64,000 nt of DNA from contig NZ_AQWU01000066.1 in the NCBI RefSeq assembly GCF_000376265.1, positions 1 through 64,000 on the forward strand, given 5' to 3'. A program made the position numbers and the translations under genes. The notes below the pieces were generated by a model, which ran no database searches, was not told where the DNA came from, and was given only the letters and a program-made list of their open reading frames with translations. Each line of letters begins with the position of its first letter. Positions within the stretch are counted from its first letter, which is position 1. This stretch comes from Thermus igniterrae ATCC 700962 (GTDB lineage Bacteria; Deinococcota; Deinococci; Deinococcales; Thermaceae). Positions 25,096 to 29,342 of the stretch are shown piece after piece.

Positions 25096-25205
25096 CGGTT
25101 GGGGAGTAGCCCCAAGGCCAGCCTCCCGTCAGGACGGGCCTAAGCCCCGGGGGCTGGGGGCAAGAAGCCTGGGCGAGACCACCGCAGAAAGCGGTGGTCT
25201 ATTTC
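25096..25205 (+). promoter_or_regulatory. yybP-ykoY (Mn2+) riboswitch candidate
   Basis: The leader holds the class hallmarks: a 5' GGTTGGGGAGTAGCC (25098-25112 region) and a 3' GGCGAGACC (25172-25180), with paired arms between them such as CCCGTC/GACGGG. The 3' element is the strand that closes P1 in this class. It also starts the terminator stem at 25176-25200, so ligand binding and termination would exclude each other: Mn2+-bound aptamer lets terC be read. The downstream TerC-family gene is a classic target. The fold was traced by eye only. Confidence 0.75.
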
Positions 25206-25208
25206 TTT
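25176..25208 (+). terminator. Riboswitch expression-platform terminator
   Basis: A perfect 10-bp stem AGACCACCGC/GCGGTGGTCT (25176-25185, 25191-25200), loop AGAAA, then ATTTCTTT. The 5' arm includes the GAGACC of the aptamer. Confidence 0.75.
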
Positions 25209-25219
25209 GGAGGTAACGC

Positions 25220-25912
25220 ATGGAAGCTGGAGTTTTTTCCGTAATCCTCATCCTGGTGGCCCTCGAGGTGATCCTTTCCGCCGACAACGCCCTTATCCTA
25301 GGGGTCATCGTCCAGAAACTTCCCGTCCACCTGAGGAAGAAAGCCCTTTTCTACGGCATCCTAGGGGCCTACGTGTTCAGGGGCCTGGCCCTCCTCTTCG
25401 CTGCCTTGGTCATCAAGCTCTGGTGGGTCCAAATTCTGGGGGCGGCCTACCTCCTCTTCATCGCCTTCCGCCACTTCCTCAAGCCCGAGGAGGGCCACAC
25501 CGCCCCCCTGGAGGTGAGCGCCGCCCACTTCTGGAAGGTGGTGGCCCAGGTGGAGCTCATGGACCTGGCCTTCGCCGTGGACTCGGTGCTGGTGGCCGTG
25601 GCCCTTTCCGACAAGCTCTGGGTCATCTACACCGGGGTCTTCCTGGGCATCCTGGCCCTGAGGATGCTGGCCAGCCTGGTGGTGGTCCTCCTGGACCGCT
25701 ACCCCCGCTTCAAACACCTGGCCTACGTGGTGGTGGGCCTGGCCGGGGTGAAGCTGGCCCTCGGGGGATGGGACAAGCTGGTGAAGGAGGCCCTCCACCA
25801 CCCCGAGCTGGCGGTGGGCCTGGACAAGGAGGCCTTCAGCCTGCTCATTTTGGGCGTCCTCCTTCTGGGAAGCCTCTGGGCCCTGCGCAAGCCCGCCCCC
25901 CAGCCCTCCTGA
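25220..25912 (+). CDS. TerC/Alx-family membrane protein, probable Mn2+ exporter
   Basis: 230 residues, about seven membrane helices. Both signature acidic motifs are present: LSADNALILG near residue 20 and MDLAFAVDSVLVAVA in the middle. TerC/Alx proteins export manganese or load it into exported proteins. GGAGGT lies 5 bases before the ATG. The candidate Mn2+ riboswitch upstream supports the manganese role. The DedA gene follows 7 bases after its stop. Confidence 0.88.
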   Translation: MEAGVFSVILILVALEVILSADNALILGVIVQKLPVHLRKKALFYGILGAYVFRGLALLFAALVIKLWWVQILGAAYLLFIAFRHFLKPEEGHTAPLEVSAAHFWKVVAQVELMDLAFAVDSVLVAVALSDKLWVIYTGVFLGILALRMLASLVVVLLDRYPRFKHLAYVVVGLAGVKLALGGWDKLVKEALHHPELAVGLDKEAFSLLILGVLLLGSLWALRKPAPQPS

Positions 25913-25919
25913 GGTGGGC

Positions 25920-26453
25920 ATGCTGGCCTGGCTCTCGGCCCTCCTGCTCTTCCTGGAGGTGGGCTTTCCCTTCGGCCTCCTCGTCCCCGGAGGGGATACC
26001 CTCCTCCTGGCCCTGGGGGCCCTGGCGGGGGAGGGCCGGCTTTCCCTCTTCCCCCTCCTGCCCCTCCTCTTCCTGGGAAGCTTCCTGGGGCACGGGGTAG
26101 GGTACGGCTTGGGGAAGGCTCTGGGCCCCAAGATTCGGGAGCGCCTCCCCGAGGGGACCAGGAAGCGGGCCGAAGGGGTCCTCCTGCGCTTTGGCCCCTC
26201 CGCCCTCCTTCTGGCCCCCTTCGTGCCCGGGTTGCGCACCGCCATTCCCCTCCTGATGGGGGCCCTGGGCTTTCCCCTGCCCGCCTACCTCCTCCTCTCC
26301 GCCGTGGGGAGCCTCCTCTGGACCCAGGGGCTCGTCCTGCTGGCCTACTTCCTGGGGCAGCGGGTCTCCCCCTGGCTCCTCTGGCCGGCCCTTTTCCTCC
26401 TCGCCCTCCTTCCCCTCCTTTGGCGCCGGAGGAAGTCCAAATCCCAGGCCTAG
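25920..26453 (+). CDS. DedA-family membrane protein
   Basis: 177 residues from the ATG at 25920, after GAGGTGG. It has the DedA pattern: an N-terminal re-entrant FPFGLLVPGGDTLLLALGAL segment, an FLGSFLGHGVGYGLGK block and an RF.P....APFVPGLRT block. DedA proteins flip or maintain membrane lipids (undecaprenyl phosphate or phosphatidylethanolamine in studied cases). It is probably in the riboswitch-controlled transcript with terC. Its stop overlaps the convergent sbtB stop by four bases (shared CTAG). Confidence 0.85.
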   Translation: MLAWLSALLLFLEVGFPFGLLVPGGDTLLLALGALAGEGRLSLFPLLPLLFLGSFLGHGVGYGLGKALGPKIRERLPEGTRKRAEGVLLRFGPSALLLAPFVPGLRTAIPLLMGALGFPLPAYLLLSAVGSLLWTQGLVLLAYFLGQRVSPWLLWPALFLLALLPLLWRRRKSKSQA

Positions 26454-26752
26454 ACGTACTTCTCCCCGCGCACCACCCAGACGTTTTCCACGTAGGCGAT
26501 CACCGCGTAGTGGGGGAAGTAGGCCTCCTGAAGCCGGGCGAGGATCTTCAGGGCCACCTCCTCGGGGACGATGGTCTCCAGGCGGATGTTCTGCCCCTCC
26601 CAGTCCACGCTGCGCATCCCCCGGGAGCCCTCCCCCCGGGCGGCCACAATGGTGTAGCCCTTGGCCCCCAGGCGCTTGACCTCCTCCACCAACTTCTTCT
26701 CCAAAAGGCTTTCCGCCACGATGGTCACCAGCTTCAAGGGCACCAGGTCCAT
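26450..26752 (-). CDS. PII-like regulator of SbtA (SbtB-like)
   Basis: 100 residues with a ferredoxin-like PII fold. GYTIVAARGEGSRGMR matches the T-loop segment of SbtB (GKGSR-like), and ENVWVVRGEKYV closes the protein. The redox C-terminal CGPxGC extension of some cyanobacterial SbtB proteins is absent. SbtB binds adenine nucleotides (cAMP, AMP, ADP) and blocks the bicarbonate carrier SbtA. The gene starts 3 bases after the sbtA stop, which supports the pairing. Confidence 0.8.
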   Translation of the reverse strand: MDLVPLKLVTIVAESLLEKKLVEEVKRLGAKGYTIVAARGEGSRGMRSVDWEGQNIRLETIVPEEVALKILARLQEAYFPHYAVIAYVENVWVVRGEKYV

Positions 26753-26755
26753 GCC

Positions 26756-27712
26756 TCACCTCCCCAGGGCCACGGCCAGGGCGTGGTAGAGGGGAATCCC
26801 CAAGACCAGGTTAAAGGGAAAGGTCACCGCCAGACTGGCCGCCAGGTACAGGCTGGGGTTGGCCTCAGGCAGGGCGATGCGCACCGCCGCGGGAGCGGCG
26901 ATGTAGCTGGCGCTGGCCGACATGGCCCCCAAGACCGTGGCCCCCCCCACGGAAAGCCCCACCAGGTGGCCCAGGTAGACCCCCAGGGCCCCGTGGAAAA
27001 GGGGCAGGAGGGTGCCGAAGAGGACCAGGCGGAAGCCCACCTGCCTTAAGGCGGAAAACCTCGAGGCCGCCACCATGCCCAGGTCCATGAGGAAGAGGGT
27101 GAGGGCCCCGTAAAAGGGGTCCACGAAAAAGGGCTTGACCCGCTCCATCCCCGCTTCACCGGAAAGGGCCCCGATGCCCAGCCCTCCCAGGAGGAGGACC
27201 ACGCTCTTGCCCGTGAGCACCTCCCGCAGGGCCTCGCCCAGGTCTCCCCCACCGCGCTTGGCCAAAAGGAGGGCCAGGACGATGCCCGGCACCTCCAGGA
27301 GGGCCACCAGGGTGGGCATGAACCCCTCGGGCCGGTGCCCCACCGCCTGGGCAAAGGTGAGGGCCGCCAGGAAGGTGACCGCGGAGACCGAGCCGTAGTG
27401 GGCGGCCAAGGCCCCAGCATCGGGGCGGGAAACCCCCAGGAAGCGGCGGGCCACGGCATAGCCCAAAAGGGGCCGGAAAAGGCCCAGGAAGAGGGTGGCC
27501 AGAGCGGGCAGGAGGAGCAGGAGGAGGGGGGTCTTGGAGAGCTCCACCCCTCCCTTAAAGCCGATGGCGAAGAGGAGGTAGATGGACAAGGCGGTGTACA
27601 TGGCCTCGGGGAAGGCCAGATCGCTCTTCACCAGCCGGGCCAAAACCCCCAGGGCGAAGGCGAGGACCATGGGGGAAAGGAGGTTGAGCCTGAGGAGCTC
27701 TAAAGCGTCCAT
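26756..27712 (-). CDS. SbtA-family sodium-dependent bicarbonate transporter
   Basis: 318 residues, about ten membrane helices in two inverted halves. The family motifs [16 protein letters not shown] and [17 protein letters not shown] are clear. In cyanobacteria SbtA takes up HCO3- with Na+ to concentrate carbon. Thermus does not fix carbon by photosynthesis, so here it may feed carboxylases such as PurK (whose gene is divergent next to it) or serve in pH or ion balance. That is speculation. It is paired with sbtB. Confidence 0.85.
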
Positions 27713-27745
27713 ACCCCGGCTTCTACCACGCGGGGGCAGGCTTGG

Positions 27746-27751
27746 TACAAT
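27746..27751 (+). promoter_or_regulatory. -10 box of purE-purK, leaderless arrangement
   Basis: TACAAT is followed by 8 bases and the purE ATG at 27760. No Shine-Dalgarno sequence. Confidence 0.5.
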
Positions 27752-27759
27752 CCGGTACG

Positions 27760-28254
27760 ATGCGGCCTTTGGTGGGCGTCATCATGGGCTCCAAGTCGGA
27801 TTGGGAAACCCTGCGGCACGCGGCGGAGACCCTCGAGGCCCTGGAAATCCCCTACGAGGTGCGCGTGGTCTCCGCCCACCGCACCCCGGACCTCATGGCG
27901 GAATACGCCAAGACCGCCCAGGAGCGGGGCCTCCTGGTGATCATCGCCGGGGCCGGGGGAGCGGCCCACCTCCCGGGGATGACCGCGGCCCACACCCCCC
28001 TGCCGGTCCTGGGGGTGCCCGTGGAAAGCCGCGCCCTCAAGGGCCTGGACTCCCTGCTTTCCATCGTGCAGATGCCCGCGGGGGTTCCCGTGGGCACCCT
28101 GGCCATCGGCAAGGCGGGAGCGGTGAACGCCGCGCTTCTGGCGGCCAGCATCGTGGGGCTTTCCCATCCCGAGGTGATGGCGCGGCTGGTGGCCTACCGC
28201 CAGGCCCAGACCGAGGCCGTCCTGGCCCACCCCGACCCCCGGGAGGAAGGATGA
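27760..28254 (+). CDS. purE: N5-carboxyaminoimidazole ribonucleotide mutase
   Basis: 164 residues. Converts N5-CAIR to CAIR in purine synthesis. Motifs are [10 protein letters not shown] near the start, VSAHRTPD and [15 protein letters not shown]. The ATG at 27760 is preferred to an in-frame GTG at 27742, because that codon lies upstream of the TACAAT box. The stop overlaps the purK start (ATGA). Confidence 0.95.
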
Positions 28255-29342
28255 GGGTGGGCGTCCTGGGCGGGGGCCAGCTGGGGCGGATGCTGGCCCT
28301 GGCCGGCTACCCCTTAGGCCTCACCTTCCGCTTCCTGGACCCCTCCCCCGAGGCCTGCGCCGGCCAGGTGGGGGAGCTTCGGGTGGGGAGCTTTCAAGAC
28401 CCCCAGGCCCTGGAAGGCTTCGCCCAGGGGCTGGACCTGGTCACCTACGAGTTTGAAAACGTGCCCGTGGAGGCGGCCCGCTTCCTGGCCCAAAGGCTTC
28501 CCGTCTATCCCCCCCCCAAGGCCCTGGAGGTGGCCCAGGACCGGCTTGCGGAAAAAACCTTCATGCGGGGGCTGGGCGTGCCCACACCCCCCTTCCAGCC
28601 GGTGGACACCCTGGAGGAGCTGGAGGAGGCCCTGGAGGGCGTGGGCCTTCCCGCCCTCCTCAAGACCCGCCGGGGAGGCTATGACGGCAAGGGACAGGCC
28701 CTGGTGCGCACCCCTGAAGAGGCCCGGGAGGCCTTCCTGGCCCTAGGGGGGCGCGGCCTTCTCCTAGAGGGGTTCGTCCCCTTTGACCGGGAGGTCTCCC
28801 TGCTGGGGGTGCGGGGCCGGGAGGGGGAGGTGGCCTTCTACCCCCTGGTGGAAAACCGCCACCAGGGGGGCATCCTCCGCCTCTCCCTGGCCCCGGCCCC
28901 CGGGCTCAGCCCGGGCCTCCAGGCCAAGGCCGAGGGGTACCTGGGAAGGGCCCTCGAGGCCTTGGGCTACGTGGGCGTCCTGGCCGTGGAGTTCTTCCAG
29001 GTGGGAGAGGAGCTCCTCTTCAACGAGATGGCCCCCCGGGTGCACAACTCCGGCCACTGGACCATAGAGGGGGCGGAGACCAGCCAGTTTGAAAACCACC
29101 TCCGGGCCCTCCTGGGCCTGCCCCTGGGGAGCACCGCCCCCCGGGGGGTGAGCGCCATGGCCAACCTGATCGGCCTTAAACCCGACTTCGCCCGGGTCCT
29201 GGCCCTGCCCGGGGCCCACCTCCACTGGTACGGCAAGGCGGTGCGCCCAGGGCGCAAGGTGGGCCACATCACCCTGCGCCGGGAGGGGTGGGAGGCCCTG
29301 GAAGCCGACCTGCCCCGCCTCCTGGACCTGGCCGAGGGCTAG
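28251..29342 (+). CDS. purK: N5-carboxyaminoimidazole ribonucleotide synthase
   Basis: 363 residues, an ATP-grasp enzyme. Makes N5-CAIR from AIR, bicarbonate and ATP, the step before PurE. It begins [19 protein letters not shown] and has the ATP-grasp blocks [13 protein letters not shown] and [14 protein letters not shown]. It needs bicarbonate, so the adjacent sbtA may be relevant. It overlaps purE by four bases. Confidence 0.95.

Follow-up and report, generated by a model that had tools for sequence, protein, structure and literature searches.

Transport of bicarbonate by the SbtA family has been tested with cyanobacterial proteins (PMC4275256; PMC8352866), and SbtA-family transporters have also been studied in autotrophic Proteobacteria (PMC10880623). 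Work on SbtA has concerned its part in the photosynthetic CO2-concentrating mechanism, but members of the family are common in other bacteria too, most of them of a subtype without a substrate measurement in the literature found. In cyanobacteria, SbtB is reported to plug SbtA when bound to AMP or ADP and to be released by ATP; SbtBs that have no redox loop are described as responding mainly to the energy state (PMC10117731, PMC8352866, PMC10991534). As for the enzyme considered below, PurK has bicarbonate as a substrate, and a need for high CO2 is reported for purK mutants of cyanobacteria (PMC10880623). SbtA-like proteins of heterotrophs are already in print (PMC10117731; PMC10880623), as are transporter-or-carbonic-anhydrase patterns in Firmicutes and some archaea (PMC10880623). 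The association of sbtAB with purE-purK is apparently new, no paper describing it having been found in the one open-access library searched.

The locus lies in a window of 64,000 nucleotides (positions 1-64,000 of NZ_AQWU01000066.1, contig 66 of the 2.2 Mb genome of Thermus igniterrae ATCC 700962, GCF_000376265.1), in which the relevant features are:

25914..26453, plus strand: gene of a VTT/DedA-family membrane protein, convergent with sbtB
26450..26752, minus strand: sbtB, PII-like protein of 100 aa, orthologue of TTHA0516 (2cz4), R44xxR47 kept, no Cys
26756..27712, minus strand: sbtA, PF05982 transporter of 318 aa with a SASYIA-type pocket (S110, V136, S269, A272)
27713..27759: divergent intergenic region, 47 bp from the sbtA start to the purE ATG
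27760..28254, plus strand: purE, N5-CAIR mutase, start ATG at 27760, with a TTG at 27742
28251..29342, plus strand: purK, N5-CAIR synthase (HCO3- + ATP), overlapping purE by 4 bases

A sequence-only reading of this DNA had placed SbtA and SbtB side by side, divergent from purE-purK, and this arrangement is borne out. Both genes are intact open reading frames on the minus strand, with 3 bp between sbtA and the downstream sbtB, and the two divergent pairs are 47 bp apart. With Pfam, SbtA reaches 369.1 bits against Sbt_1 (PF05982, cut-off 27), covering positions 1-307 of the 308 of the profile, and SbtB 81.5 bits against P-II (PF00543). With NCBIfam, purE and purK match the equivalogs TIGR01162 (220.6 bits, cut-off 149.6) and TIGR01161 (384.6, cut-off 318.4), and no model matched SbtA or SbtB. 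The genome carries a single PF05982 gene. The VTT/DedA gene is probably not part of the module, since no DedA match was found at some Thermus loci.

In the divergent region, inspection of an alignment by eye places TACAAT at 27746-27751, ahead of a leaderless-looking purE, and a weak -10-like TGGTAGAAG on the minus strand for sbtA, roughly where the -35 of purE would be expected. The aligned promoter rows number 32, of which 31 are Thermus rows (some probably of the same species) and one is from a further locus (L184). TACAATCCGGTACGATG ahead of purE is unchanged in all 32, and the candidate sbtA -10 is weak or divergent in several. A scan for the sigma-70 consensus flagged neither of the two divergent promoters. 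On this by-eye reading, the putative promoters of sbtA and purE seem to overlap one another, and transcription of the two genes would then be coupled. Elsewhere in the window, the leader at 25098-25219 of a TerC/YkoY-family gene (25220-25912) contains a strong hairpin followed by a T-run (25176-25200). The NCBIfam model of that gene bears the name R_switched_YkoY; a riboswitch search of the leader with Rfam returned nothing at the gathering score and only weak, chance-like matches at E values up to 1.

The reading that we prefer, and hold to be somewhat better than an even bet, is that of a Na+/HCO3- importer gated by adenylates, with PurK and other carboxylases as the users of its bicarbonate. 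SbtA would be a Na+-coupled elevator importer of bicarbonate and SbtB a PII-like plug, the T-loop of which, with AMP or ADP bound, would enter SbtA from the cytosol and stop transport. ATP would free SbtB from SbtA, and import would proceed at high ATP and close as AMP or ADP rises. In a Thermus cell with neither alpha nor beta carbonic anhydrase, the imported bicarbonate would be used by PurK, encoded across the shared 47 bp and transcribed outwards from it, and probably by other bicarbonate-using carboxylases. Since the adenine nucleotides that SbtB would sense are end products of the PurK pathway, import would be tuned to purine demand as well as to energy charge.

The transporter and its PII-like partner

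The AF2 model of SbtA (pLDDT 91, pTM 0.90) has five SbtA entries as its best PDB matches, among them 8zor, Synechocystis SbtA (TM 0.91, Z 41.8, 2.1 A over 316 residues). By its superposition on 8zor, the model shows the 10-TM, 5+5 fold of SbtA. At the sequence level, the protein matches Slr1512 (7cye) with an E value of 8.5e-27, and the alignment makes its loop between the two halves about 50 residues shorter. Bicarbonate is reported to be held in Slr1512 by the side chains of Ser114, Tyr140, Ser324 and Ser327, alanine at any of these leaving 10-40 percent of activity (PMC8352866). The aligned Thermus residues are Ser110, Val136, Ser269 and Ala272: the serines S110 and S269 are kept and the two other side chains differ from those of the proven Slr1512-type transporter. 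This replacement of Tyr140 and Ser327, each needed in Slr1512 according to that same work (PMC8352866), counts against the preferred reading. The description of a complete SbtA in the sequence-only reading stands for the intact frame and the profile coverage, and has to be qualified for the shortened loop and for two of the four bicarbonate side chains.

The same pocket columns are nearly all of the Thermus type across the SbtA loci, cyanobacterial loci in the L036-L081 range included. This type combines Ser, then Val, Leu, Met, Ile or Ala, then Ser, and mostly Ala, with a SASYIA or SSYIA motif. A tyrosine at position 140 was found, among the sampled loci, only in L156, L157 and L190/L191, the last two being two contigs of one genome. 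As judged from these residues, the Thermus type is the main SbtA subtype in this sample, which is biased towards that type because similarity to the Thermus protein was one of the criteria by which it was collected. On sequence grounds, Thermus SbtA is a member of PF05982 outside the proven Slr1512 type; two of the four side chains of the bicarbonate site are replaced and the proven transporters belong to another subtype, so that bicarbonate is only its putative substrate.

Some loci depart from the simple pair. A second, divergent SbtA-like gene (L176:9639-10511, genome G095; 38 percent, motif AANAFYVTSP, 67 bits to PF05982) lies between purE and sbtA. Tandem SbtA genes (55 and 41 percent) occupy L016:6001-7953, where tblastn gave no adjoining SbtB. 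In large Planctomycetota genomes (L242, L243, L246 and L247), the SbtA matches are split by about 260-385 bp, as if the inter-half loop were much enlarged.

For SbtB, the solved relatives are TTHA0516 (2cz4, E 1.6e-55), to which it is near-identical over all 100 residues, and, as more distant orthologues, SbtB7001 of Cyanobium (5e-12) and Slr1513 of Synechocystis (3e-9). Two properties place it among the SbtBs, its PII family and a gene directly downstream of sbtA. The R43xxR46 of the Slr1513 ATP site, at the base of the T-loop and with a reported role towards the ATP phosphates (PMC10117731), corresponds to R44xxR47. The C-terminal CGPxGC redox loop (R-loop) is absent and the protein has no cysteine, so that the earlier description of a PII-like SbtB without the redox motif was accurate. 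The R-loop is not needed for SbtB membership, since, of 460 cyanobacterial SbtBs, only about half are reported to have it (PMC10991534). From its sequence, then, Thermus SbtB is of the simple kind, without the redox loop. Its T-loop is 5 aa shorter than in the two cyanobacterial SbtBs compared, and the plug may therefore work differently, a further point against the preferred reading.

Recurrence of the pairing with purE and purK

The sequence-only reading had proposed looking for the same gene order in other Thermus. PF05982 is present in 27/27 Thermus genomes, in all 27 with sbtB next to it and purE divergent, and purK follows purE within the sequence examined in 26. In one genome (G026), a transposase-like ORF, TnpB-like by eye, stands right after purE where purK is expected (L088:2976-3900). 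Among 20 loci from as many genomes of other Thermaceae, purE is within 2.5 kb of sbtA in 15 and within 6 kb in 18, the two misses ending at contig edges; two of these loci (L167, L179) have sbtAB between purK and purE. Outside Thermaceae, purE is near sbtA at 0/13 loci of other Deinococcota families.

A first, multi-phylum sample of loci was selected by SbtA alone. Outside Thermus, purE occurred near sbtA in three Verrucomicrobiota loci (L025, L026, L030), one of Planctomycetota (L078) and one of Nostoc (L039), the last with purE alone, at 1.7 kb. A further sample covered 294 Planctomycetota genomes, 49 of them over the SbtA cut-off, and 48 places were analysed, leaving out G030 (the same as L078), four fragments of G499 and G599, and two below-cut-off places in G533 and G610. 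Within 3 kb of sbtA, purE was found by tblastn in 10 of these 48 loci and purK in 9, as compared with 5/113 and 4/113 in the other non-Thermaceae loci; tblastn counts are given for Planctomycetota purE, ORF clustering there having called some antisense ORFs of purE. NCBIfam confirmed the purE or purK identity of all nine proteins submitted, from L214, L025, L030, L078, L231 and L240. As a control, the 3 kb flanks of these loci were queried with 65 proteins of the window (64 ORFs and purK): 61 control genes gave 11 matches in total in the 113 loci, at most 3 for one gene, and none in the 48 Planctomycetota loci. The corresponding Poisson expectation is 0.18 loci per control gene, a figure that ignores relatedness and is not used as a probability. 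In a Verrucomicrobiota sample, 25 places gave no purE near sbtA and the 26th over the cut-off (G029, the same as L030) gave one. This 1/26, together with the 0/13 of the non-Thermaceae Deinococcota, weighs against the preferred reading.

The order of the genes varies: purE-purK-sbtA-sbtB, purK-purE-sbtA-sbtB, sbtA-sbtB-purK-purE and sbtA-sbtB-purE-purK are all found, and the arrangement is divergent in Thermus. In a tree of 135 SbtA sequences, the purE-linked rows are scattered (14 parsimony changes) and occupy at least six separate places, set apart by forks of SH-aLRT of at least 95; this is a quick tree, with support weaker than bootstrap, built after the removal of eight long or split rows. 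The scattered recurrence, the varied gene orders and the near-zero controls make up the strongest evidence for a functional tie between sbtAB and purEK, and the pairing suggests a dedicated supply of bicarbonate for purine synthesis. The idea of a link between PurK and bicarbonate would have suffered from a neighbourhood unique to this genome; the neighbourhood recurs in Thermaceae, Planctomycetota and Verrucomicrobiota. Scarcity of CO2 at high temperature, the driver first imagined, is not adopted: the pairing is also carried by Planctomycetota and Verrucomicrobiota, and heat is not needed to explain it.

Carbonic anhydrases, other neighbours and alternative explanations

The explanation closest to our own is a general supply of inorganic carbon, in which SbtAB would stand in for carbonic anhydrase on behalf of all carboxylases, purEK being one consumer and PurK having no special role. 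It overlaps the preferred reading, so that the likelihoods given to the two do not sum to one, and we put its chances at about even. The Thermus genomes fit it, with beta carbonic anhydrase in 0/27 and the alpha class in 0/26. A gamma-carbonic-anhydrase-like hexapeptide protein is present in 26/26 and conserves three His positions, putative zinc ligands, found in YrdA of E. coli. One such gene lies at G000:C58:37052-37495. Of the alpha, beta and gamma classes searched in Thermus, absence applies to alpha and beta, and the gamma-like protein counts against the preferred reading. In genus g4 of Thermaceae, intact beta carbonic anhydrase occurs in 0/15 genomes with SbtA, versus 2/3 without it (p 0.02), which also agrees with a general supply, as do the one-or-the-other patterns that PMC10880623 reports in Firmicutes and in some archaea. 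Two SbtA-positive g4 genomes (L200 in G080, L201 in G094) have beta-carbonic-anhydrase genes interrupted by in-frame stops or by a change of frame, possibly as a result of sequencing errors.

On the other side, SbtA and carbonic anhydrase are both present in 3/4 genomes of genera g2 and g3, and Planctomycetota show no complementarity (carbonic anhydrase in 33/49 SbtA genomes versus 145/245 others, p 0.34), a result that speaks against both the general supply and the preferred reading. A general supply is also disfavoured by the 65 window queries, none of which recurs near sbtA apart from purE and purK, although carbonic anhydrase was the sole other bicarbonate enzyme queried. For 100 Deinococcota, the counts are 10 with both, 48 with SbtA only, 25 with carbonic anhydrase only and 17 with neither (Fisher p 1.7e-5, related genomes being treated as independent in this as in the other such tests); the exclusion is driven by the 26 Thermus genomes, without which p is 0.02. 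Family f5 shows no complementarity (p 0.69). A simple replacement of carbonic anhydrase by SbtA was accordingly rejected, the Deinococcota signal being driven by Thermus and absent in f5 and Planctomycetota. Elsewhere, of the 30 SbtA genomes examined, drawn from the 80 loci in the first sample, 25 have carbonic anhydrase. Post hoc, it was found in 4/11 purE-linked versus 29/38 unlinked Planctomycetota SbtA genomes (p 0.025); adding three linked Verrucomicrobiota, all positive and one by a partial match, gives 7/14 linked versus 51/64 unlinked (p 0.04). A sub-threshold carbonic anhydrase match (22.5 bits) was also seen shortly downstream of sbtAB in L162 (G063, contig 78:41531-41662).

A second explanation, which we consider unlikely, is that the substrate of SASYIA-type SbtA is formate or some other small carboxylate, carried inwards or outwards, the purine link then being one-carbon use through the formyl groups of PurN and PurH. 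It draws on Shewanella SO_3758, which shares the motif: the A269T change, and the wild type when placed in Zymomonas, are reported to raise formate tolerance, and the authors lean to efflux (PMC12093963), an observation that goes against bicarbonate import. It is also kept alive by a PurN gene (GAR formyltransferase) adjoining sbtAB in five loci of one Planctomycetota clade (L203, L205, L206, L207, L208), the identity having been checked with NCBIfam in L206 alone of the five. The recurrent neighbours point the other way. Ranked by frequency over the 113 non-Thermaceae loci, the neighbour clusters begin with SbtB, followed by beta carbonic anhydrase on the same strand (19/113, nearly always with Thermus-type SbtA) and by a LysR-type regulator (16/113), identities resting on Pfam for one representative of each cluster. 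Sets of SbtA, SbtB and carbonic anhydrase occur in L054, L056, L069 and L079, with the anhydrase first in L019 and L027, and carbonic anhydrase stands beside sbtA in 4/48 Planctomycetota loci. Since carbonic anhydrase and PurK both handle bicarbonate, these neighbours favour bicarbonate over formate as the substrate of Thermus-type SbtA; no formate gene appeared among the identified recurrent clusters, most small clusters being unnamed. In a Myxococcota locus (L012:4418-6718), an Mrp/complex-I-like antiporter gene directly follows sbtB and could supply the Na+ gradient.

Finally, a pairing without functional meaning, carried along as gene order was inherited or transferred, appears very improbable: part of it may be due to descent in Thermaceae and in the clade of Verrucomicrobiota and Planctomycetota, and many relatives have no purE pairing, but the six or more tree places, the several orders and orientations and the near-zero controls argue for a functional link.

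Comparison with known systems

If the preferred reading, import of bicarbonate for PurK and other carboxylases under adenylate control, is true, bicarbonate supply to purine synthesis would be a regulated step, and 2cz4, deposited as hypothetical, would gain a function. The pairing with purE-purK gives the Thermus-type SbtA subtype a concrete, testable role, and a heat-stable SbtAB pair could be used in structural work and carbon-uptake engineering. A bolder proposal can be ventured tentatively, although we would not bet on it: sbtAB-purEK would be a recurrent non-photosynthetic module, a PII-gated bicarbonate importer dedicated to purine carboxylation and repeatedly assembled in Deinococcota, Planctomycetota and Verrucomicrobiota, in which SbtB would exert end-product and energy-charge control and the SASYIA subtype would form a second class of bicarbonate transporter with a pocket of its own.

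Four described systems come close. TTHA0516 of Thermus thermophilus (2cz4) is a near-identical SbtB, deposited as a hypothetical protein with no function in its PDB listing; a search of the open-access literature found no paper on it. Shewanella oneidensis SO_3758 has the SASYIA motif in common with Thermus SbtA (S268-A273 in the numbering of the paper, PMC12093963) and differs by its formate-tolerance phenotype, the one phenotype found for this motif (PMC12093963). The SbtA-SbtB-carbonic anhydrase sets of cyanobacteria and others have the same SbtA subtype and an SbtB, with carbonic anhydrase as partner in place of purEK. The cyanobacterial pair Slr1512-Slr1513 of Synechocystis (7egk, 7egl, 7cyf, 8zor) shares family, fold and the sbtA-sbtB order, and the positions of Ser114 and Ser324 and the R43xxR46 of SbtB are conserved in Thermus. 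However, Thermus SbtA is only about 28 percent identical to Slr1512, with Tyr140>Val, Ser327>Ala and Asp325>Tyr and a shorter inter-half loop; its SbtB, as compared with Slr1513, has a T-loop 5 aa shorter and no CGPxGC; and, unlike the Synechocystis system, the Thermus pair belongs to a heterotroph and stands beside purEK.
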